Shown one piece after another: positions 3,727 through 31,360 of a DNA stretch of 32,502 nucleotides; the stretch's first letter is position 1, and every line of letters starts with the position of its first letter. The stretch comes from Deltaproteobacteria bacterium. GTDB taxonomy: Bacteria; Myxococcota_A; Polyangia; Haliangiales; Haliangiaceae. Both the position numbers and the translations under genes were made by a program. The DNA is taken from positions 5,358-37,859 of the forward strand of contig VBLP01000186.1 of the NCBI GenBank assembly GCA_005887925.1, read 5' to 3'. The notes beneath the pieces are model-generated. The model did not search any database. It was not told where the DNA came from and was given only the letters and a program-made list of their open reading frames with translations.

Positions 3727-5829
3727 CTATTTCTGCGAATAGATGAACCGGAATGCCGTACATACCGGCGTCGCCTTGCCATTGATCACGTACGGGCGAT
3801 AGCGCCAGTCCTTGCGGATCGTAGTCGCGATCTTGGCGTCGTAGGCGGGGAAGCCGGTGCCCTTGAGCTGCGTCACGTTGGCGATGGCGCCCTCGGCGGT
3901 GATGCAGACCTTGAAGCTGCTGATCAGCTTGTCCGCACCCGCCCGGCTGATCGCGCCCTGCGTGGTCTCGTCGGGGGCGATGCTCTTGTCGCCGGAGATC
4001 CGGAAGCCGTCGAGCGCCGTCGGCGCGACGACCTGGGGCACCATCGGCGCGGGCGGCGCCGCCGCCGGCGTCTCCGCCGGAGGGACCACCGGCTGTGTCA
4101 CGCTCTGCGGCGGCGGTGGTGGCGGCGGCAGGACAGGTGCCGGGCGGTGCTCCGGCTCGGCGATGGGCTCGCTGCGGGGCGGCGGCTCCGGCGGCGTCGC
4201 GACCGCGATGCGGGTCGGGCGCTCGGGCTTGGCGCTGGGAGGCGACTCCATGGTGGTCCGGGTCACGGTGCGCACCGTCGGCCCGGGCGGGGTGGGGCGG
4301 CCCTTGCGAGGCGGCGGCTCGGGCTCGCGGATCGCCATCCGCGGCGGCGGGCCGGCGGAGTCCGTCGCGGCGGGGTCGGGGGTCGGGCTCTCCGAGCTCG
4401 GAGCGCTCGCCCCCGGCGCGGTGGTCGCGAGCGCCGACGGCGGCGGCGCCGGCGGCGGCTGGGCGGTGGGCGGCGGTGCCGGCGGCGTGGCGGGCGGCGC
4501 TGCGACCGGCGTGATGTTGCTCCGGGTCATGCTCACGACCAGCCAGATCGCGGCGCCCATCGCGAGCGCACCGCCGATCATCGCGGCCTTCTGCACCGGG
4601 AACGTGCGCGGCGCGAAGGTGCGCGACTGGTTCTCCCAGCCCATGCGCGAATCGGTCGCGGGCGGCGCACTGGGCAGCGGCGTGAACGACGGGCGCTGCG
4701 GCGCTCCGAGCCGCGCCGTGGCGTCGGGCGCGGCGTCGCCGGGGATGACGGGAACCTGGCCGCTCTGGACCGGGATCGAGCTGGTGCGGCGGGGGTCACC
4801 GTCGCTGCGCGGCAGCTCGGTCCAGCTGTTGCTCGGCATCGACTCCTCGATCGACATCTGGACGTCGACGAGCGCGCCCGACGGCTGACCACCGAGCTCG
4901 AGCCACGGCTCGGGCCGCTGACCGAACTGCTGGCGCATGTACGCCCCGATCGCCGAGCTCGATGCGGTGAGCCCCGCGGTGGCGGCGAACTGGTCGAGCG
5001 CGGCGCGGAGCTCCTCGGCGGTCGCGTAGCGGCGGTCGCGATCGGTCGCGAGCGCGCGCATGATGATGTCCGACAGCTCGGTCGGCAGGCCGGGCCGGCG
5101 GGCGTGCGGCGGCGAGATCCGGCCGGTGACGATCTGCTCCATCACCAGGTAGTCGTTCTCGCCCCTGATCATCCGCGTCGTGGTCGCGAGCTCGTAGAGC
5201 ACCACGCCGAGCGCGTAGACGTCGCTGCGGCGATCCACGATCGCGCCCTTGCACTGCTCGGGCGACATGTACGAGAGCTTGCCCTTGAGGCTGCCCGAGC
5301 GGGTCTCCTGCCGCATCGAGGCGGTCGCGATGCCGAAGTCGACGACCTTGATCGAGCCGTCGTAGCCGACGATGATGTTCGACGGCGACACGTCGCGATG
5401 CACGATGTTGAGCGGCTGCTTGTCGTTGCCGCGCCGCTCGTGCGCGTAGTGCAGGCCGGCCGCCGCCGACGACACGATCGCGATCGCATGACCGAGCGGG
5501 ACGTAGCTGCGCTGCTTGGCCGCCGCCGACAGGATCCTGCGAACGTCCTCGCCGTGGACGTACTCCATCGCGATGAAGTACTCGCCGCTGGCCTCGCCGA
5601 CGTCGTAGACCTGCACGATGTGCTGGTGATGCAGCGTCGCCGCGACGCGCGCCTCGTCGAGGAACATCCTGATGAAGCGCTGGTCGCGCGCGAGATCGGG
5701 GCGGATCCGCTTGAGCACGACGTGGCGCTCGAAGCCCTCGATCCCGTCGCTCCGCCCGAGCACGACGTCCGCCATCCCGCCTGATGCCAGGTGCTTGAGC
5801 ACAACATATCGGCCTAAACGAGCGCCCAT
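3727..5829 (-). CDS. Transmembrane Ser/Thr protein kinase with proline-rich linker and TonB C-terminal-like domain
   Basis: Numbered from ATG 5829 (700 aa). Residues 5-280 form a complete Hanks-type kinase: glycine-rich loop L-A-S-G-G-M-A-D-V (14-22), Lys40 in V-V-L-K-R-I, HRD at 144-146, Asn151, DFG at 164-166 and SPE near 189-191. A juxtamembrane stretch is followed by one hydrophobic helix at about 415-435, a proline-rich region at about 440-605 and, at about 625-700, a domain resembling the TonB C-terminus (G-x-I-x-N-V pattern, W-R-Y-R-P-Y, and a final F-R-F-I-Y strand). The layout implies a cytoplasmic kinase and a periplasmic TonB-like tail. The membrane helix lacks the conserved His of energised TonB proteins, and no exbB/exbD is nearby, so a sensory role is more likely than transport energisation. 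The start at 5829 is chosen because G-A-R-L-G-R-Y typically begins such kinases; an ATG at 5874 is possible. It is divergent from a TonB-dependent receptor. Confidence 0.88.
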   Translation of the reverse strand: MGARLGRYVVLKHLASGGMADVVLGRSDGIEGFERHVVLKRIRPDLARDQRFIRMFLDEARVAATLHHQHIVQVYDVGEASGEYFIAMEYVHGEDVRRILSAAAKQRSYVPLGHAIAIVSSAAAGLHYAHERRGNDKQPLNIVHRDVSPSNIIVGYDGSIKVVDFGIATASMRQETRSGSLKGKLSYMSPEQCKGAIVDRRSDVYALGVVLYELATTTRMIRGENDYLVMEQIVTGRISPPHARRPGLPTELSDIIMRALATDRDRRYATAEELRAALDQFAATAGLTASSSAIGAYMRQQFGQRPEPWLELGGQPSGALVDVQMSIEESMPSNSWTELPRSDGDPRRTSSIPVQSGQVPVIPGDAAPDATARLGAPQRPSFTPLPSAPPATDSRMGWENQSRTFAPRTFPVQKAAMIGGALAMGAAIWLVVSMTRSNITPVAAPPATPPAPPPTAQPPPAPPPSALATTAPGASAPSSESPTPDPAATDSAGPPPRMAIREPEPPPRKGRPTPPGPTVRTVTRTTMESPPSAKPERPTRIAVATPPEPPPRSEPIAEPEHRPAPVLPPPPPPPQSVTQPVVPPAETPAAAPPAPMVPQVVAPTALDGFRISGDKSIAPDETTQGAISRAGADKLISSFKVCITAEGAIANVTQLKGTGFPAYDAKIATTIRKDWRYRPYVINGKATPVCTAFRFIYSQK

Positions 5830-5874
5830 TGGAACCCAACGGTAATGAGTTACGACGAAATCGCCAATCATCAT

Positions 5875-6470
5875 TTATCGCGAAATACCCCATCGTTACC
5901 TCAGTGACATTCAGGTCCGCGATCTCTCTCAGCTTTGTGCTGTGATGGGACTTCACGGCGACACGTCCGCACATCTGCGCGCGCGTCGCTGCGAGGCGAC
6001 ACCGCCGCAGTCGGTGCGCCGGGTGCGCGGTGCTTGCGCGCTCGCTATACGGAGCAGCCGCATCAGCCCGGTGCGACAGGGCTCGTCGACGGGGCGGCGC
6101 GCGCCGGCTGTCGGGCGCTGACCGAGCCCGCCGCGCGCCACCGGGGCGCGCCTCGGCAGCGGCATGAACCGCTGGTTTCGCAGCGGTTTCCGCCCTGGCG
6201 GGTCGCGCGACCGCCGAGCCCGTCGAGCCCGGTCGCGCGGCCTGCGACCCGCGGGACTCACACTGCCTATCTGCCGGGCCGTCCGGCGCTCTAAGAGATC
6301 CGCTGATCGCGAAGATCGATAGTCCGAAACTCCTGAGCCTACAGGCACACACGTGTCGAGTATCAAAAAACCATGCTCGACAAACAACACTGGCCTCTGC
6401 TAACAATGAATATGTACATTTCGGGGGAGGCGTATGGGAGAGTCTCATTGCGAATTGGGAAGTAGGTAAA
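5875..6470. other. Divergent intergenic region between kinase and receptor genes
   Basis: About 600 bp without a convincing gene; a plus-strand frame at 5935-6294 looks like composition noise. The middle (5940-6300) is GC-rich and carries several inverted repeats, listed separately. The last 170 bp before the receptor start are much richer in A+T, as expected of a promoter zone. There, 6405-6420 is an imperfect palindrome (AATG...CATT, six of eight pairs) that could be an operator. No clear -35/-10 pair could be picked. Promoters for both divergent genes should lie here. Confidence 0.6.
6133..6239. repeat. Cluster of three consecutive stem-loops
   Basis: Three perfect inverted repeats follow one another about 15 nt apart. 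The first is GCGCGCC/GGCGCGC at 6133-6151 (loop 5). The second is AACCGCTG/CAGCGGTT at 6167-6188 (loop 6). The third is CGCGCGACCG/CGGTCGCGCG at 6204-6239 (loop 16), whose arm sequence GGTCGCGCG also occurs as a direct repeat at 6201-6209. A 12-bp palindrome sits just before them at 6095-6106. None is followed by a T-run on either strand, so they do not look like simple terminators. High GC raises the chance level for the first and third. Confidence 0.55.
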
Positions 6471-9467
6471 ATGATCCGGACGAATGCTGTGGTTTGTGGC
6501 ATGTGTCTGATCGCCGCCGGCATCACGCCAGCCGTCGCCGATATCAACGCGAATTCACCGAAATCGCTGCACATGCGATCTCGGCCTGCGACGCCCGGGT
6601 CGCCGGTGCGCACGGGGAGGAAGGTCGCGCAGGTGCCGGCGCCGGATCCGCAGCCTCCCGCCGGGGATCCGGCCGCCGATCGCAGCGGAAATCCGCCGGC
6701 CCCACCGCCGGCGGCCGCGGAGCCCACTCCGGCGGCCGCGGAGCCCGCGCCGGCGGCCGCGGAGCCCGGACCGGCCGCCGACACCGCCGCCGAGCTCAGC
6801 GACGCCGAGTTCGCCAAGCTCGCCGAGCAGGAGTCCAAGGAAGAGGTCATCATCGTCACCGGCTCGACGATCGGCCGCAAGAGCCTCACCACGCCGGCGC
6901 CGCTCAGCATCCTGAACCGCGAGCTGCTCAACGCCGCCGGCCGCCCGACGGTCGGTGACATCATCCAGACCCTGCCGGCGCAGACCAACGGTATCAACGC
7001 GCAGACCAACAACGGCGGCGACGGCTCGACCCGCGTCGACATCCGCGGCCTCGGCGCCGCCCGTACGCTGACGTTGATCAACGGCCGCCGCGTCGTGCCG
7101 AGCGGCAACGGCGCCAACTCGTCGGTCGATCTCAACACGATCCCGCTCGCCGTGATCGATCGCGTCGAGGTCCTCAAGGACGGTGCGTCGGCGGTGTACG
7201 GCTCGGACGCGGTCGGCGGCGTGGTCAACATCATCACGCGCGGCGACTTCGAGGGCACCGAGGCCACGCTGTACAGCGGCGGCACGTCGCGCGGCGACGG
7301 CATCGCGTACGACGCCAGCTTCGTCACCGGCTACAACTCGGAGAACAAGCAGGGCAGCATCCTGTTCTCGGCCGGCGTCCAGCGCCAGAGGCCGGTGTTC
7401 GCCGGCGATCGCCCGTTCTCGTCGTACGACAAGACCTACGACTTCGGCAACAGGGTCGAGGTCCGGAGCGGCTCGACCGCGGTTCCCGGCGGTCGGATCA
7501 ACTCCCTGGCCATCGACCTCAACGGCGACCGCAAGCCCGACCCCATCAACGTGTGCGGCCAGCCGGTCAATTACCTCTACACGCCGTCGTCTCGCTACAA
7601 CCTGTACAGCTCCGGCTCGTACAAGCTGCGGCCCGGCATCGGCACGTTCTTCGAGGGCAGCTACATGAACCGCAAGAGCGATCAGCAGCTCGCCTCGGAG
7701 CCGTTCAGCAACGCGGTGACGATCTCCAAGGACAGCATGTACAACCGGATCGGCGGAGACATCCTGGGCTACCAGCGCCGCCTCGACGAGTTCGGTCCCC
7801 GAAGCTCGGTGCAGAACATCAACAACTTCCGGCTGGTCGGCGGCTTCCAGGGCACGATCCCGAGCGACGCCGAGGTGTTCAAGAACTTCAAGTGGGAGCT
7901 GTCGTACAACTACGGCCGCAACGACGGCGAGCAGACCAACCAGGGCAACCTGATCAAGAGCCGGCTCGCCGCCGCGCTGGGTCCGAGCTTCATGAGCTCT
8001 GCCGGTGTTCCGACCTGTGGCACGCCGGCCAAGCCGATCGCGGGCTGCATCCCGATGAACATCCTCGGCCCGGTCGGCACGATCGACCCCGCGGCCGCGG
8101 CGTACGTGACCTACACCGGCGTGCGGAGCGGCTTCAGCGAGCAGCAGGCGCTGCTCGCCCAGGCGCACGGCCGGCTCGCCGCGCTGCCCAACGACGGCGA
8201 TCTGTCGCTCGCGATCGGTGGCGATGTCCGCAAGGAAGCCGGCGGCAACACGCCCGACCCGCTGACCGCGACCGGCGACACCACGGGCAACGCGTCGACT
8301 CCGACGGCGGGTTCGTACAACGCCGTCGAGGCGTTCGGCGAGCTCTCGCTGGTGCCGGTCAGCGGCAAGCAGTTCGCCGAGTGGGTCGAGATCAACCTCG
8401 CCGCCCGCGCGTTCCGCTACAACAACTTCGGCAGCGGCGTCACCTGGAAGACCGGCGCGCTGTTCCGCACGGTCGGCGGCGTCGCGTTCCGCGGCACGTA
8501 CTCGACCGCGTTCCGCGCGCCGTCGGTGATCGAGCTCTATCAGGGCCGGGCCGACACCTTCCCGACCACCGCCGACCCGTGCGACACCAAGCCGCGCGGC
8601 ACGACGATCATGCTCGACCCGGACGTCGCGGCCCAGTGCTCGGCGCAGGGCGTTCCGGCCACCGCGGCGTTCGGTTCGATCCAGCAGCGCGCGGTGGTCG
8701 GCGGCAATCCGAGCCTCAAGGCGGAGACCGCCAAGGTGCTCACGGCGGGCATCGTGCTCGAGCCCCCGGCCGTCAAGGGGCTGTCGTTCACGGCTGACTA
8801 CTGGCGGATCAACATCACGCACGCCATCCAGGCGCTCGGCGCCACGGTGATCCTCGCGAACTGCTACAACCACGGAATCCAGTCGTACTGCGATCAGATC
8901 CACCGCAATCCGGCGCTCGGTTATGCGATCGACTTCATCGACAACCCGATCGCCAACGTCGGCGGCGCGGCGACCTCCGGCGTCGACTTCGCCCTGGCCT
9001 ACGACCACAGCTTCGGCGCCGCCGGCCGGCTCCGCGAGCAGCTCGAGTGGCAGAACCTGTTCAAGTACAACGTCGACAACACGGTGCAGATCCTGCACGG
9101 CCTGAGCCGCTACGATCTCGGCGCCCGGCCCAAGAACAAGGCGAACTTCTCGACGGTGTGGCAGCATCCGAGCGGCCTGGGCACCGGCTTCAACATCCGC
9201 TTCGTCGGCACGTTCAAGGAGTGCGACCAGAACAACTGCAACGGCGGCGCACCGTCGCGCGATGTCGCCCGGTGGTACAAGGCCGATGTGTTTGCCATGT
9301 ACGGGCTCAAGACCCGCGCCGGCACCACGACGCTCACGGTCGGCGTCAACAACGTGATGAACCAGAACCCGCCGCTGATCTACATCGGCATCCAGGGCGA
9401 CTCCGACGCGGCGACCTACGACTACATGGGTCGGTTCATCTACGCCCGCATGTCGCAGATGTTCTAG
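6471..9467 (+). CDS. TonB-dependent outer-membrane receptor
   Basis: A 998-residue outer-membrane beta-barrel receptor, long but normal for the family. Residues 1-23 are a Sec signal peptide ending A-V-A-D. Residues 50-105 are a Pro/Ala-rich linker with repeated A-A-A-E-P-x-P units. A TonB-box-like stretch E-E-V-I-I-V-T-G-S lies at 124-132. The plug domain spans about 135-255 with the typical N-G-R-R-V, R-V-E-V-L-K-D-G-A-S-A-V-Y-G-S-D-A and G-G-V-V-N-I-I-T motifs. The barrel fills the rest, with a terminal Phe as expected for outer-membrane assembly. It would import a siderophore, vitamin or oligomer across the outer membrane using TonB energy; the substrate is not evident. It is divergent from the kinase with a TonB-like tail, which may contact its TonB box. 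The stop codon overlaps that of the convergent downstream gene. Confidence 0.93.
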   Translation: MIRTNAVVCGMCLIAAGITPAVADINANSPKSLHMRSRPATPGSPVRTGRKVAQVPAPDPQPPAGDPAADRSGNPPAPPPAAAEPTPAAAEPAPAAAEPGPAADTAAELSDAEFAKLAEQESKEEVIIVTGSTIGRKSLTTPAPLSILNRELLNAAGRPTVGDIIQTLPAQTNGINAQTNNGGDGSTRVDIRGLGAARTLTLINGRRVVPSGNGANSSVDLNTIPLAVIDRVEVLKDGASAVYGSDAVGGVVNIITRGDFEGTEATLYSGGTSRGDGIAYDASFVTGYNSENKQGSILFSAGVQRQRPVFAGDRPFSSYDKTYDFGNRVEVRSGSTAVPGGRINSLAIDLNGDRKPDPINVCGQPVNYLYTPSSRYNLYSSGSYKLRPGIGTFFEGSYMNRKSDQQLASEPFSNAVTISKDSMYNRIGGDILGYQRRLDEFGPRSSVQNINNFRLVGGFQGTIPSDAEVFKNFKWELSYNYGRNDGEQTNQGNLIKSRLAAALGPSFMSSAGVPTCGTPAKPIAGCIPMNILGPVGTIDPAAAAYVTYTGVRSGFSEQQALLAQAHGRLAALPNDGDLSLAIGGDVRKEAGGNTPDPLTATGDTTGNASTPTAGSYNAVEAFGELSLVPVSGKQFAEWVEINLAARAFRYNNFGSGVTWKTGALFRTVGGVAFRGTYSTAFRAPSVIELYQGRADTFPTTADPCDTKPRGTTIMLDPDVAAQCSAQGVPATAAFGSIQQRAVVGGNPSLKAETAKVLTAGIVLEPPAVKGLSFTADYWRINITHAIQALGATVILANCYNHGIQSYCDQIHRNPALGYAIDFIDNPIANVGGAATSGVDFALAYDHSFGAAGRLREQLEWQNLFKYNVDNTVQILHGLSRYDLGARPKNKANFSTVWQHPSGLGTGFNIRFVGTFKECDQNNCNGGAPSRDVARWYKADVFAMYGLKTRAGTTTLTVGVNNVMNQNPPLIYIGIQGDSDAATYDYMGRFIYARMSQMF
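6710..6772 (+). repeat. Three tandem 21-bp units in the receptor gene
   Basis: Units at 6710-6730, 6731-6751 and 6752-6772 share GGCGGCCGCGGAGCCC and differ in the last bases. They encode the A-A-A-E-P-x-P repeat of the periplasmic linker between signal peptide and TonB box. The in-frame period suggests linker length can vary between strains. Confidence 0.8.
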
Positions 9468-16633: not shown

Positions 16634-17098
16634 ATGACGAACATCATCTGCCCGCCGTTCACCCAGGAGACTGCGATCCGCAAGGTCCGCATGGCGGAGG
16701 ACGCATGGAACACCCGCGATCCGGCGCGCGTGGCGCTCGCCTACACCGAGAACAGCCGCTGGCGCAACCGCGACGAGTTCTTCGAGGGCCGGCCGGCGAT
16801 CATCGCGTTCCTCGAGCGCAAGTGGAAGCGCGAGCTGGACTACCGGCTGATCAAGGAGCTGTGGGCGTTCGGTCCGGACCGGATCGCGGTCCGCTTCATG
16901 TACGAGTGGCACAACGACTGTGAGCACTGGTTCCGCGCCTACGGCAACGAGCAGTGGGAGTTCGACGCCGGCGGGCTGATGCGCTGGCGGCAGGCGAGCA
17001 TCAACGACGTGCCGATCCGGGCCGGCGACCGCAAGTTCCTGTGGTCGCAGGGACCGCGGCCGGCCGACGCGCCCGGCCTCACCGAGCTCGGGCTTTGA
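16634..17098 (+). CDS. NTF2-like / SnoaL-fold protein (DUF1348 type)
   Basis: A 154-residue single-domain protein of the nuclear-transport-factor-2-like fold, at the usual family length. The helix [10 protein letters not shown], then [14 protein letters not shown]-x-E-G-R-x-A-I-x-x-F-L-x-x-K-W, and the aromatic-rich strand F-M-Y-E-W-H-N-D are hallmarks of the DUF1348 subgroup. These proteins are small cytoplasmic enzymes or binders of unknown substrate. An AGGAG eight bases before ATG 16634 supports the start. The stop codon overlaps a TTG that is in frame with the following DNA methyltransferase, suggesting translational coupling. Confidence 0.88.
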
Positions 17099-18012
17099 CC
17101 GGATCGCGCGGCGCACGGGCGCGCGCGGGCGAGGACGAAGGGATCGACCGGATCGGGCCGTGGCAGCTCGACACCGTGCACAACGTGGACTGCGCGCGCG
17201 GGCTGGCGGCGCTGCCGGCGGGATGCCTGGACGTGATCGTGACGTCGCCGCCGTACTGGGGGCAGCGCGGCGCGGGCGGGCTGGGCGCGGAGGCGGATCC
17301 GCGCGATTACGTCGCTCACCTCGCGGCGGTGCTCGCCGAGGGGATGCGCTGTCTCCGGCCGTCGGGCACGCTGTGGCTCAACGTCGGCGACGCCTACAAC
17401 ACACCGATCAACTGGCGCGAGGGCGATCACGTGTACAGCTCGCTCGGCGTGGACGGCGCGGGGCTGCCGGCGACGAACTCGGCCTACACCAAGAACCGCG
17501 GCCGGCGGCGCGCGTTCGTGCGCGAGGATGTTGGCTGGCTGCGCTACGGAAACCTGCTGGCGCTGCCGTATCGCATCGTCGTCGCGATGTGCGACCGCGG
17601 CTTTCTGTTTCGCGGCGAGGTGATCTGGGAGAAGTCGCGGCCGATGCCGGAGGGGTTGTGCCGGCGACCGCACCGGCGGCATGAAGGGATCTATGTGTTT
17701 GCCAGGGACGAGCGCCACGCGTTCCAGACCCGGCCGCCGGTGGGCACGGTGTGGCGGCTGCGCCAGACGCCGAACCTGACGCCGCACTGCTCGACGTTTC
17801 CGCTCGATCTGCCGGTGCACTGCATCCGCGCGGCCGGGCTCGCGGCGCCGGGCGCGATCGTGTGCGATCCGTTCATGGGCAGCGGCACGACGGGTCGCGC
17901 GGCGCGCATGCTGGGGCATCGCTTCCTCGGCTTCGAGCTCGATCGCGAGATGTGCCGGCTCGCGAATGCGTACGCCCGCAACGTCCGGGCGCGCTCGCCG
18001 CGCCGGCCATGA
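17095..18012 (+). CDS. DNA methyltransferase, beta class (probable N4-cytosine or N6-adenine), orphan
   Basis: About 305 residues from TTG 17095. The catalytic motif IV is T-S-P-P-Y-W at 50-55 and comes first; the AdoMet-binding motif [11 protein letters not shown] at 257-266, comes last. This order defines beta-class amino-methyltransferases. S-P-P-Y-W leans toward N4-cytosine, but N6-adenine members exist. A likely target-recognition region lies between (about 100-220), with a basic R-R-P-H-R-R-H stretch near 190. The start is inferred: TTG overlaps the TGA of the NTF2-like gene as TTGA, a common coupling arrangement, and no good in-frame ATG lies outside the upstream gene. No restriction endonuclease is adjacent, so it may be a regulatory or protective methylase. 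Confidence 0.88.
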
Positions 18013-27633: not shown

Positions 27634-27717
27634 GGAATCACCGCGGCCGTCAGCAGGGCGGAAATCCGCGCGTCGGGCGCCCAACTCGCCAACCTGGTGA
27701 GGCGAGGGTGATATCGT

Positions 27718-27722
27718 GGAGG
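27718..27722 (+). promoter_or_regulatory. Shine-Dalgarno deciding the kinase-ATPase start
   Basis: GGAGG lies five bases before ATG 27728. An in-frame GTG at 27716 overlaps it and is therefore a poor start. Confidence 0.7.
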
Positions 27723-27727
27723 TCTCG

Positions 27728-30700
27728 ATGGACGTCGGGCACGCCGCGCCAATGCCGATGTTTGGGGCCGGTAGGTTCGAGGTGCGCGGTACGCTGGGGG
27801 CCGGCGGCGCCGGTGTGGTGTACCGCGCCTTCGACCGCCAGCTCCAGCGCGAGGTCGCGCTCAAGCTGCTGCGCCAGGCGTCGGGCCGCGACCTGTACCG
27901 TTTCAAGAAGGAATTCCGCGCGCTGGCCGACATCGCCCACCCCAACCTGGTCGCGCTGCACGAGCTGCATTCCGCCGACGGCGACTGGTACTTCACGATG
28001 GAGTTGGTCGAGGGCGTGTCGTTCATCGACTGGGTCCGGCCATCGCCGCAGGGGGGGCCGAGCCGGGGGCGCCAGGACATCATCGCCGCGCCGGTCGACC
28101 TCGCGCGGCTGCACGGCGCGCTGGTCCAGCTGGTCGACGCGCTGATCGCGCTGCACCGCGCCGGCAAGCTGCACCGGGACCTCAAGCCGTCGAACGTGCT
28201 GGTGACCCAGACCGGCCGGCTGGCGCTGCTCGACTTCGGGCTGGTGTCCAGCGTCGCCGAGGGCGATCCGGAGCGGCTCGCCGTCGGCACGCCGGTCTAC
28301 ATGTCGCCCGAGCAAGCCGCCGACCAGCCGCTGAGCGAGGCGAGCGACTGGTACTCGGTGGGCGCGATGCTCTACGAGTCGCTGCTCGGCCGCCGCCCGT
28401 TCGAGGGCGACTCCGAGCAGGTGATGACCCGCAAGCAGACCGAGCAGCCGCCGTCGCCGCGCCAGCTCGACAGCGGCGTCCCGGTGGAGCTGTCGCGGCT
28501 GTGCATGCTGCTGCTCCAGCCGGCGCCGAGCGCGCGGCCGTCCGGCATGGCGATCCTCGAGACCCTCGGCGCGGCGCCGTCGGAGATCACCCGGACGATC
28601 GGGCGCAGCTACCCGCCGGCGATGTTCGTCGGGCGCGGCGCGGAGACCGAGGTGCTGCGGCGCGCGCTCGGCGATGCGCGGCGCGGCGGCGTGGCGCTGC
28701 TGGTCCGCGGCCGCAGCGGGATCGGCAAGACCACGCTGATCCGGCGGTTCCTGCGCGGCCTGGGCGAGTCGGTGTTCGTCCTCGAGGGCCGGTGCTACGA
28801 GCGCGAGGCGGTGCCGTTCAAGATGCTCGACGGCGTGGTCGACTCGCTGACCGGGGCGATCGTCGGGCTGCCGCTCCTGGTCGCCGAGCAGCTCGCGCCG
28901 CGCGACATCGGCTCGCTGGTCCGGTTGTTCCCGGTGCTGCGCCGCGTGCCCAAGTTCGCCGAGCTCGCCGCGCAGGCGACGGTGCCGCAGGATCCGCAGG
29001 AGATGCGGCGGCGCGGGTTCGCCGCGCTGCGCGCGCTGCTCGCCCGGCTCGCCCGGATGCGGCCGCTGGTGATCTTCGTCGACGACGCGCACTGGGGCGA
29101 CGCCGACAGCGCGGTGTTCCTCGCCGAGCTGATCCACGGCGCCGAGCCGGGCACGCTGATCATCGTCGCGCACCGCCCCGAGGACTACCTCGGCGTGGTC
29201 GCGCAGGTCCGCCGGCCGCCCGCCGGCCACCCGCGGCGCGGCGAGGTCCGCGAGCTCGAGATCGTGCCGCTGTCGGAGGCCGAGGCGACCCAGCTGGTGA
29301 CCCAGCTCGCCGGCGGGACCGGCCGCGCGCCCGAGGTGGTCGCCGCCAGCGCCGGCAACCCGCTGGTCCTGACCGAGCTGGCGCGTGCGCCCGAGCTGAC
29401 CCCGGGGCTGCGGATCGAGGACCTGGTGCGCGAGCGCGCTCTCAAGCTGTCGCCGGACGCCCAGGCGATGCTGGCGGTGTCGAGCATCGCGGCGCGGCCG
29501 CTGCCGGTCGAGATCGCGGCCCACGCCGCCGGCGTGATCGGCGGGCACGACGAGGCGACCCAGCTCTCGGTCGAGCGGCTCGCGACCCTGCGCCAGGTCG
29601 GCGACCAGATGATCCTGCATCCGGCGCACGACCACGTGCGCAATGCGGTGCTCGCGAGCCTCGACGCGGAGTCGCGCGCGGGCTGGCACGAGGCGCTGGC
29701 CCAGGCGTTCGAGACGGTGCAGGGGCCCGAGCAGCTCGACTCGCAGGCAGTGGTCGAGCACTGGCTCGCGGCCGGCCACCCGGCGAACGCGGCGCACCAC
29801 GCGGTGTCGGCGGCGCTGCGGGTCGAGGAGGCATTCGCGTTCCACCGCGCCGCCGAGCTCTACGAGATCGCGCTCGCGTACGGGCCGTGGGACACCGCCG
29901 GACAGCGCGACCTCCTGCGGCGCAAGGCCCACGCATTGCAGTGCGCCGGTCAGCTCGACGAGGCCGCCGCGGTCTATGCCCACGCCTCCCAGCTGCTCGC
30001 CGACGGCGACGCGATCGACCTCGAGCGCCTGCACGTCGAGGTCCTGCTGCGGCGCGGCCGGCTCGACGAGGCGCTGCCGGCGGCCGAGCGGCTGCTCGCC
30101 AAGGTCGGGATCCGCATCCCGCTCGCCGCGCGCGCGTCGCGGACCCGGCTCGCGACGCAGTGGCTGCAGGTCAAGCTGCGCGGCCTGGATTACGTCGAGC
30201 GCGATGCCTCCGCGATCCCGGCGCAGCAGCTCTTGACCATCGACGTCCTGTACTCGATCTCGTCGAGCCTGGCGTTCTCCGACCCCGCGCTCGGGCGCGT
30301 CGTGCAGTCCGAGCTGGTGCGCGCCGCGCTCGACGCCGGCGAGCCCGTGCGGGTGTGCCTCGCGCTCGCCCAGGAGGTCTGCTACGCCGCGGCCGGCGGC
30401 AGCCGCAACCGCGCCGTGGTCGAGGCCGTCGCCGCGCGGCTCAAGACGGTCGCGCTGCGCATCGCCTACCCGCACATCATCGGGCTGGCCGACACCGCGA
30501 TGGGTATCGCCGCCCACATGAACGGCCGATGGGCCGACGCGCGCGGCCACCTCGAGGCCGGGCTGGCGACCCTGCGCGATCACGGCGCCGGGGTTCGCTG
30601 GGAGATCGACATCGGCGACACGTTCTGGCTCGCGACGCTGTTCTACCTCGGCGAGTGGCGCGAGATGGCGCGGCTGACCCAGGCGCTGCTCCGCGAGGCC

Positions 30701-31360
30701 AGCGACCGCGGCGATGTCGTCGCCCAGCTCGGCCTGCGCACCGGCCGCTGCAACTACGCGTGGTTGCTCGCCAACCGGCCCGATGAGGCCCAGGTCCAGC
30801 TCGCCCTGGCGACCCAGACCCTCGGCGCCGGCTTCCACCTGCCGCACGTCCAGGTCATCGTCGCCCAGGTCAACCTCGACCTCTACACCGGGGCGGCGGC
30901 CGCGGCGGCGCACCGGCTGGCCGAGGCGTGGCCGAGCATCGAGCAGATCGGCGTCTTGCGGCTGCAGCAGCCGCGCATCGAGCTGCAGCTCTTGCGCGCA
31001 CGGGCCTTGTTCGGCGATGCGACGCAGCCCGACCGGCTGCGCGCGGTGCGGACGATCGCCGACGACATGCTCAAGGAGGGCGCGGTCTGGGCGTCGGGCC
31101 TGGGCCACCTCCTGCGCGCGGCGGTGGCGGCGTGGAACGGCGACGGCGATGCCGCGCTCGGTGAGCTGGTGCTCGCGGAGGAGCACCTGGTCGCGGCGGG
31201 CATGCTGGGACTGTTGCAGATCGCACGTCGCCGCCGCGGCGGTCTCGAAGGCGGCGCCGGCGGCATCGCACGCGCCGAAGCCGCGCGGGACGCCCTGCGC
31301 GACCTGGGCGCCGTCGACCCCGATCGCGTTGCGGCGCACATGCTGCCCTGGCCGGCCTGA
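27728..31360 (+). CDS. Ser/Thr protein kinase fused to AAA-type ATPase and helical repeat region
   Basis: Numbered from ATG 27728 (1210 aa). Residues 15-280 are a Hanks-type kinase: G-A-G-G-A-G-V-V at 24-31, K46 in V-A-L-K-L-L, HRD at 149-151, DFG at 169-171 and M-S-P-E at 192-195. Residues about 297-640 form an ATPase with the entry motif F-V-G-R at 300-303, Walker A G-R-S-G-I-G-K-T-T at 328-336 and Walker B V-I-F-V-D-D-A-H-W-G-D at 448-458. Residues about 650-1210 are Ala/Leu-rich helical repeats of the TPR type. The plan is that of the PknK/MalT-like kinase-ATPase class, cytoplasmic signalling proteins that sense a partner through the repeats. There is no DNA-binding domain at the C-terminus, so output is likely by phosphorylation. 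No transmembrane helix is seen. A ferritin-like gene follows on the same strand. Confidence 0.93.
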   Translation: MDVGHAAPMPMFGAGRFEVRGTLGAGGAGVVYRAFDRQLQREVALKLLRQASGRDLYRFKKEFRALADIAHPNLVALHELHSADGDWYFTMELVEGVSFIDWVRPSPQGGPSRGRQDIIAAPVDLARLHGALVQLVDALIALHRAGKLHRDLKPSNVLVTQTGRLALLDFGLVSSVAEGDPERLAVGTPVYMSPEQAADQPLSEASDWYSVGAMLYESLLGRRPFEGDSEQVMTRKQTEQPPSPRQLDSGVPVELSRLCMLLLQPAPSARPSGMAILETLGAAPSEITRTIGRSYPPAMFVGRGAETEVLRRALGDARRGGVALLVRGRSGIGKTTLIRRFLRGLGESVFVLEGRCYEREAVPFKMLDGVVDSLTGAIVGLPLLVAEQLAPRDIGSLVRLFPVLRRVPKFAELAAQATVPQDPQEMRRRGFAALRALLARLARMRPLVIFVDDAHWGDADSAVFLAELIHGAEPGTLIIVAHRPEDYLGVVAQVRRPPAGHPRRGEVRELEIVPLSEAEATQLVTQLAGGTGRAPEVVAASAGNPLVLTELARAPELTPGLRIEDLVRERALKLSPDAQAMLAVSSIAARPLPVEIAAHAAGVIGGHDEATQLSVERLATLRQVGDQMILHPAHDHVRNAVLASLDAESRAGWHEALAQAFETVQGPEQLDSQAVVEHWLAAGHPANAAHHAVSAALRVEEAFAFHRAAELYEIALAYGPWDTAGQRDLLRRKAHALQCAGQLDEAAAVYAHASQLLADGDAIDLERLHVEVLLRRGRLDEALPAAERLLAKVGIRIPLAARASRTRLATQWLQVKLRGLDYVERDASAIPAQQLLTIDVLYSISSSLAFSDPALGRVVQSELVRAALDAGEPVRVCLALAQEVCYAAAGGSRNRAVVEAVAARLKTVALRIAYPHIIGLADTAMGIAAHMNGRWADARGHLEAGLATLRDHGAGVRWEIDIGDTFWLATLFYLGEWREMARLTQALLREASDRGDVVAQLGLRTGRCNYAWLLANRPDEAQVQLALATQTLGAGFHLPHVQVIVAQVNLDLYTGAAAAAAHRLAEAWPSIEQIGVLRLQQPRIELQLLRARALFGDATQPDRLRAVRTIADDMLKEGAVWASGLGHLLRAAVAAWNGDGDAALGELVLAEEHLVAAGMLGLLQIARRRRGGLEGGAGGIARAEAARDALRDLGAVDPDRVAAHMLPWPA

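Follow-up and report, generated by a model that had tools for sequence, protein, structure and literature searches.

A Ser/Thr kinase with a TonB-type C-terminal domain beside a TonB-dependent receptor in a member of the Haliangiaceae, and a separate receptor-kinase gene pair in nine genomes

The window, a stretch of 32,502 nucleotides from the assembly GCA_005887925.1 of a Deltaproteobacteria bacterium, encodes P0001, a Hanks-type Ser/Thr kinase with a single membrane pass, in which a Pro-rich stalk carries a predicted periplasmic domain of the TonB C-terminal type. The gene of the TonB-dependent receptor (TBDR) P0002 lies next to it in divergent orientation. Within the same genome, another kinase ending in a TonB-like tail directly follows a TBDR on contig C468. 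Conserved gene order points to a receptor-kinase pairing for this C468-type unit only.

Domain architecture of the kinase P0001 and its divergent neighbor

Coordinates of the features identified in P0001 and P0002 are summarized in Table 1. Translation of P0001 probably starts at M1 or at M16 (position 5829), and the gap to P0002 amounts to 596–641 bp depending on the start chosen. The catalytic motifs VLKR (53), HRD (159), DFG (179) and SPE (204) are intact and identify the protein as a Hanks-type kinase. PknB_PASTA was the top NCBIfam match of P0001, located over the kinase part and scoring below its cut-off. C-terminal to the kinase domain, the hydrophobicity peaks at residues of about 429–449, followed by a stretch in which Pro accounts for 59 of 177 residues (449–625). 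An earlier reading, made from the sequence only, had proposed the order kinase, single helix, Pro-rich spacer and TonB-like tail. This order was recovered and the tail is indeed TonB-like; the helix is located at about 429–449 instead of 415–435, and the tail spans about 616–715 instead of 620–700.

Table 1. Features of the kinase P0001, the receptor P0002 and the region between them (window coordinates).
Feature	Position	Strand	Evidence
Ser/Thr kinase P0001, 715 aa	3727..5874	-	ORF and translation; Pkinase E 8.7e-36
P0001 TonB C-terminal-domain-like tail, residues 616-715	3730..4029	-	PF03544 borderline, alignment, AlphaFold2, Foldseek
P0001 Pro-rich spacer, residues about 450-620	4015..4527	-	Pro count
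P0001 membrane helix, residues 431-449, without histidine	4528..4584	-	hydropathy
P0001 kinase domain, residues 23-287	5014..5808	-	Pfam Pkinase and motifs
Intergenic region P0001/P0002, 596 bp if the start is M1	5875..6470	.	gap between ORFs
TBDR P0002, 998 aa, divergent from P0001	6471..9467	+	Plug and barrel over Pfam cut-off
P0002 TonB-box-like stretch EEVIIVTG, residues 124-131, just N-terminal of plug	6840..6863	+	sequence
P0002 plug, residues 140-251	6888..7223	+	PF07715, E 2.4e-22
P0002 beta-barrel match, residues 426-962	7746..9356	+	PF00593, E 1.5e-26

Profile searches placed the P0001 tail at the borderline of the TonB family. TonB_C (PF03544) scored 25.1 bits in the genome scan and 21.1 in hmmscan (cut-off 24.6), NCBIfam tonB_Cterm reached 12.1, far below its cut-off of 27.1, and P0001 gave no AgmX/PglI match (NF033768) at E values of 1 or lower. 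Structure prediction, which the sequence-only reading had named as one check on its claim, yielded a TonB-CTD-like fold: the AlphaFold2 model, based on 53 aligned tails, was of high quality (pLDDT 96, pTM 0.86), and the top 17 Foldseek matches in the PDB were all TonB-type C-terminal domains (TonB, FusB, HasB). The best of these, and the sole one below 0.001, was chain D of 6i97, solved with FoxA (E 2.9e-4, TM 0.69 by query length); TonB chains from BtuB and FhuA complexes were also among the matches. Two Cys residues are invariant in all 53 aligned tails. A chance match or another fold as an explanation for the tail is ruled out by the AlphaFold2 and Foldseek results.

The P0001 helix lacks the TonB His, and no ExbB or ExbD matches were found on the window contig C714, both as stated before; the 13 ExbD and 12 ExbB matches of the genome are all located on other contigs. 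Among the aligned sequences, 13 of 19 operon TonBs have a membrane-helix His, compared with a single one of the 38 kinases, in which it sits at the edge of the helix; another of the 38 sequences ends before reaching the helix. Since six of these 19 Oar-type operon TonBs also lack the His, and seven operon TonBs either lack it or fail to display it, its absence is no proof of decoupling. Judged from the missing His and the missing linked exbB/exbD genes, an energized state of P0001 is unlikely.

P0002 showed Plug and barrel matches, in agreement with the earlier claim that the neighbor is an outer-membrane receptor with a TonB box; the box-like stretch is EEVIIVTG. Only Plug and barrel were listed by Pfam for P0002, with no STN signaling domain, and neither FecR-like anti-sigma nor ECF sigma factor genes were detected among the 20 window ORFs scanned. 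Overlapping frames aside, no ORF in the intergenic region is longer than 145 aa. Elsewhere in the window, a further kinase gene (27716-31360, plus strand, 1214 aa) combining Pkinase with an AAA_16 ATPase domain and a DNA methylase gene (16954-18012, plus strand; N6_N4_Mtase, E 1.9e-33) were observed; restriction enzyme matches were absent among the window ORFs scanned.

Relatives of the window genes and origin of the tail

Conserved adjacency of kinase and receptor genes, which had been expected for the window pair, was not found. The plug profile detected no receptor at the best 80 of 459 loci with kinase relatives (82 kinase ORFs, 66 of them with at least 2 kb of upstream and 65 with at least 2 kb of downstream sequence). 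Likewise, 12 further kinase regions (L173-L180, L187-L190), some of them cut by contig ends, gave no plug match, and a Pfam plug search returned none on the contig that carries the closest P0001 paralogue (C387). A conserved P0001-P0002 adjacency is therefore rejected: within the sequence available, no receptor adjoins the orthologous kinases.

The closest relatives of P0001 were found in the genomes G013, G006, G010, G004, G011 and G005. Together with P0001 and the C387 kinase they form one clade (8 rows, SH-aLRT 99) in a kinase tree built by a quick method. In all three orthologues scanned, the tail matched AgmX/PglI (NF033768) over the NCBIfam cut-off, and GltG matched far below its cut-off; two further orthologues are cut before the tail (L012/L174, L013/L176) and the sixth (L178) is AgmX-like by eye. 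The C387 locus and the orthologue loci have several neighbors in common (all assigned by eye), namely a small second kinase and acyl-CoA-dehydrogenase-like, ABC-transporter and cytochrome-biogenesis-like genes; the P0001 locus has only the kinase in common with the orthologue loci. Since C387 keeps the surroundings of the orthologues and the window only the kinase, the window copy is taken as the moved one. Many of the clusters obtained by conserved-neighbor clustering represented shadow reading frames. Several genomes have the small second kinase close to the kinase gene of the ancestral locus (L173:7558-8403, L177:10038-10853, L178:214-972, L091:10927-11928).

Close copies of P0002 in its own genome were found on C472, C104, C33, C196 and C2, representing an expanded receptor set, and relatives occur in three genomes of other genera; at E 1e-60, none of the 15 congeneric genomes gave a match. 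No kinase directly adjoins the copies in the own genome within the sequence covered; one lies about 4 kb away on C2. The same applies to four P0002-like regions of other genera, one of which has a kinase about 6 kb away.

The tail of P0001 is closest to TonB proteins encoded in operons of the order TonB-ExbB-ExbD-ExbD-Oar-like receptor. Its top identities (60–61%) were to TonBs of the same genus, and it is 56–58% identical to the Oar-operon TonB of its own genome. Tail relatives at 58–59% identity were found on three contigs of the own genome, comprising the second kinase on C387, the TonB on C17 and a lipoprotein-like protein (by eye) on C614. On C17, the genes for TonB, ExbB, two ExbD proteins and an Oar-like receptor ('Oar-like' as read from sequence) form an operon. 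Among 20 family regions around tail matches, ExbB adjoins the tail gene in 19, both ExbB and ExbD are present in 18, and a relative of the C17 receptor is additionally present in 14; five of the six regions without such a relative end at a contig edge, and L221 has none in the 5.6 kb past ExbD. This composition equals the Oar-type gene set of Myxococcus xanthus, which comprises tonB1, exbB1, exbD1 and exbD2 with oar according to PMC6434023.

A search of 30 family genomes at E 1e-8 found the tail in every one, for the most part within ORFs shorter than 450 residues. In the tail tree, which is based on few columns and leaves 30 of 50 forks open, the tails of P0001 and C387 group together (SH-aLRT 84) inside an unresolved set of Oar-operon TonBs. 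Similar tails were also observed on proteins other than kinases: a lipoprotein-like protein (by eye; L093:8846-9703), two proteins with DUF4215 matches, one of them over the cut-off, and one with an aspartyl-protease match (the latter three at L094:9401-10690, L095:3351-4256 and L096:93-1883).

The C468-type receptor-kinase unit and further tailed kinases

Scanning of the TBDR regions of the own genome revealed the C468 locus (L232:2125-7552), at which a TBDR is followed by a Ser/Thr kinase that has a membrane helix, a Pro-rich spacer and a TonB-like tail. Eight congeneric genomes were found to contain orthologues of this receptor at E 1e-150 (60–65% identity), and the other 308 of 317 class genomes gave no match at this threshold with three candidates scored per genome. 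At all eight loci with downstream sequence (own genome plus seven), the receptor gene is followed on the same strand by a TonB-tailed kinase, with 3–102 nt to the first Met. For the ninth genome, G008, the receptor is split over two contigs and its C-terminal end just precedes the kinase on the second. Hence, the unit is present in nine of nine genomes having a C468-type TBDR (L232, L268-L274, L326). Apart from the pair itself, which was left out of the flank comparison, homologous ORFs (at least 90 aa; blastp E 1e-15, more than 100 bits) are common only to L269 and L270; at L268, L273 and L326, the flank is short or missing on one side. This indicates that the C468-type genes stay together while their surroundings change. 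The earlier proposal of a TonB-tailed kinase paired with a TBDR is thus supported by the C468-type locus and not by the window pair: C468 and its orthologues have the TBDR followed by the kinase on one strand in conserved order, whereas the window genes are divergent and their pairing is not conserved.

The tail of the C468-type kinase was also modeled (pLDDT 88.7, pTM 0.78), and its best PDB match was again 6i97 chain D. The two tails scored against TonB_C reached 15.9 and 22.6, below the cut-off of 24.6. The kinase helices contain no His. A PEGA-like stretch is present in five of the nine kinases and exceeds the Pfam cut-off in both scanned. Both receptors scanned carry a CarboxypepD_reg domain, and stretches like NETIVVVGSRTPRTN are located N-terminal of the plug. 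A tail profile built from the tails of eight carriers, with the G008 tail left out, gave best E-values of 1.1e-38 to 4.3e-46 for these eight genomes, 3.3e-37 for G008, and 6.8e-9 to 2.9e-19 for seven genomes of the same genus lacking this TBDR. Accordingly, no tail of C468 grade was found in these seven genomes, two of which are only 59 and 73% complete. Within the own genome, the C20 copy of the C468 receptor (47% identical) is without an adjacent kinase, and the 14 kb examined at the C468-type kinase of C223 contain no receptor.

Five tailed kinases were identified in the own genome (C714, C387, C468, C223, C391), AgmX/PglI-tailed ones being left out. The profile of C468-type tails revealed further tailed kinases across the family, and each of the 18 regions fetched encodes kinase and tail on one ORF. 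No receptor directly adjoins the kinase in these 18 regions, one of which has a plug about 4 kb away. PEGA-like stretches were found in 17 of the 18 kinases. Around these loci (L313-L332 except L317 and L326), an amino-ketobutyrate CoA ligase-like gene (by eye) lies near 13 of 18 and a ferritin-like gene near 12 of 18. Furthermore, three kinases of other Myxococcota records, one of them named Polyangium, also carry a tail. The kinase tree separates the window group, the group of C468 and the family-wide kinases, and the third group of other Myxococcota, which implies either repeated fusion of the tail to kinases or frequent loss of it.

The regions of all 36 Pfam plug places of the own genome, many of them cut by contig ends, were considered; kinase matches directly adjoin a TBDR on C714, C468, C233 and C159. 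By a rough sum, the number of kinases beside TBDRs is not clearly above expectation. The C233 pair (L236:4805-8689) consists of a PEGA Ser/Thr kinase without TonB_C match directly before a TBDR with PEGA and weak TPR ahead of the plug. At the C159 locus (L247:9589-13690), a TBDR has a kinase ORF directly downstream, which is also ATPase-like by eye. The plug profile used here was trained on the receptors of this genome and missed five of the 36 places (C504, C595, C473, C410 and one of three on C578). Moreover, kinases were sought by single query domains, so any of the regions scanned may contain distant receptors or kinases that escaped detection. Of the first-look candidates, three per genome were scored in the search for the C468 receptor, 16 per genome for the tail profile, and 73 candidates for the kinase; absences and counts are thus lower bounds. 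Most of the genomes used for comparison are drafts split into many contigs, and the own genome is 81% complete.

Proposed signaling role and competing explanations

According to PMC11637429 and PMC11658791, TBDRs signal to the cytosol via a signaling domain of their own, followed by an anti-sigma factor and then a sigma factor. PMC11658791 also reports that substrate binding unfolds the TonB box of BtuB into the periplasm and that substrate raised the affinity between FoxA and TonB 17-fold. A kinase with a TonB-type domain could therefore sense loaded receptors. The favored reading of P0001 and the other TonB-tailed kinases is that of a non-energized TonB mimic that senses outer-membrane receptors and signals by its kinase, and we regard this as evenly balanced between right and wrong. 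The tail would span the periplasm and dock on the TonB boxes or plugs of receptors once substrate exposes them; docking would gather or reorient kinase molecules, and the cytosolic kinase domain would then phosphorylate its targets. That a single protein links the occupancy of a receptor to phosphorylation is an inference, as are the steps involved (docking, dependence on ligand, activation of the kinase) and the choice of receptor partner for P0001. This partner may be the divergent P0002 or, with about equal probability, an Oar-type receptor with which the parent TonB works.

Several observations made above were counted against a receptor sensor, namely the AgmX/PglI tails of the P0001 orthologues, the tailed kinases without a receptor and the tails on non-kinase proteins. 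They fit a general periplasmic or envelope-binding module instead, by which the kinase would sense the state of the envelope, e.g., peptidoglycan or another outer-membrane protein, in the manner of the AgmX/PglI gliding-motility proteins; the 18 family regions lacking a directly adjoining receptor point in the same direction. Such a module would not require a receptor-kinase unit kept in nine of nine genomes amid mostly different neighbors, and we consider this explanation unlikely. The relationship of the tail suggests another possibility, which appears rather unlikely as well: P0001 may read an Oar-type receptor, or its Ton complex, with a tail copied from an Oar-operon TonB and the partner kept, P0002 being a neighbor by chance. 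The top identities of the tail to same-genus TonBs, whose regions contain ExbB and mostly both ExbDs and an Oar-like receptor, argue for this, as do the grouping of the P0001 and C387 tails amid these TonBs, the like tail of C387, a contig that yielded no plug, and the membership of P0002 in a receptor set expanded in its own genome. However, identity to the Oar-operon TonB of the own genome is limited to 56–58%, so specificity may have moved, and the C468-type unit indicates that neighboring receptors can be real partners.

Regarding the window adjacency taken alone, a chance neighborhood without functional meaning is considered just as probable as a meaningful one. The genome contains 36 plug matches and 384 first-look kinase candidates (unverified), the pair was chosen because it is striking, and it is divergent, separated by a gap of about 600 bp and not conserved. 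Assuming 1.1 kb per gene and 36 plug places, the rough odds for a given gene to lie beside a TBDR are about 0.0065; calculated after the fact, at least one of four tailed kinases would lie beside a TBDR with about 0.026. Against coincidence stands the fact that two of five tailed kinases in the own genome adjoin TBDRs, for which the same rough sum gives about 4e-4 (at least two of five).

Among the closest known systems is the Oar-type TonB of M. xanthus (PMC6434023), with which P0001 has in common the C-terminal domain fold, the Pro-rich spacer and the single helix, its tail being up to 61% identical to operon TonBs of the same genus; P0001 differs by the cytosolic kinase domain in front, the helix without His and the lack of exbB/exbD matches on its contig. 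Like FecA-FecR-FecI, as outlined in PMC11637429 and PMC11658791, the pair would comprise a TBDR presumed to signal via a single-pass inner-membrane protein to the cytosol. In contrast to that system, P0002 lacks STN, a TonB-type domain takes the place of the FecR-type domain, and the output would be Ser/Thr phosphorylation instead of a sigma factor. PASTA kinases (PknB) also consist of kinase domain, one helix and outside sensor, the sensor of P0001 being a TonB-type domain. AgmX/PglI proteins of myxobacteria (NF033768) represent the tail type of the same-genus orthologues (three of three scanned), whereas the P0001 tail resembles TonB more. A TonB-type domain (TonB_C) also ends certain BlaR1-like M56 peptidases, which are likewise signaling proteins; P0001 differs from them in being a kinase and not a peptidase. 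No description of a TonB-tailed Ser/Thr kinase or of a TBDR-kinase unit was recognized by title or abstract start in literature searches, which mostly did not cover subscription papers and are weak evidence of absence. The review PMC11658791 contains no occurrence of the word 'kinase', and the retrieved portion of PMC9239204 holds nothing on TonB-tailed kinases or TBDR-kinase units. Pkinase-TonB_C architectures may already be catalogued in domain databases.

Taking these results together, we tentatively propose, with somewhat less than even confidence, a new trans-envelope signaling class in which Ser/Thr kinases use a TonB C-terminal domain to sense loaded receptors without proton-motive energy. 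One branch would be locked as a two-gene unit kept amid changing surroundings, and P0001 would represent a duplicate with a tail from an Oar-type TonB that may be gaining a new receptor partner. The conserved receptor-kinase unit makes the signaling idea testable with two genes. If true, TonB-domain kinases would provide a shorter, phosphorylation-based route from TBDRs to the cytosol and would help to account for the inputs sensed by some of the numerous kinases in these bacteria.
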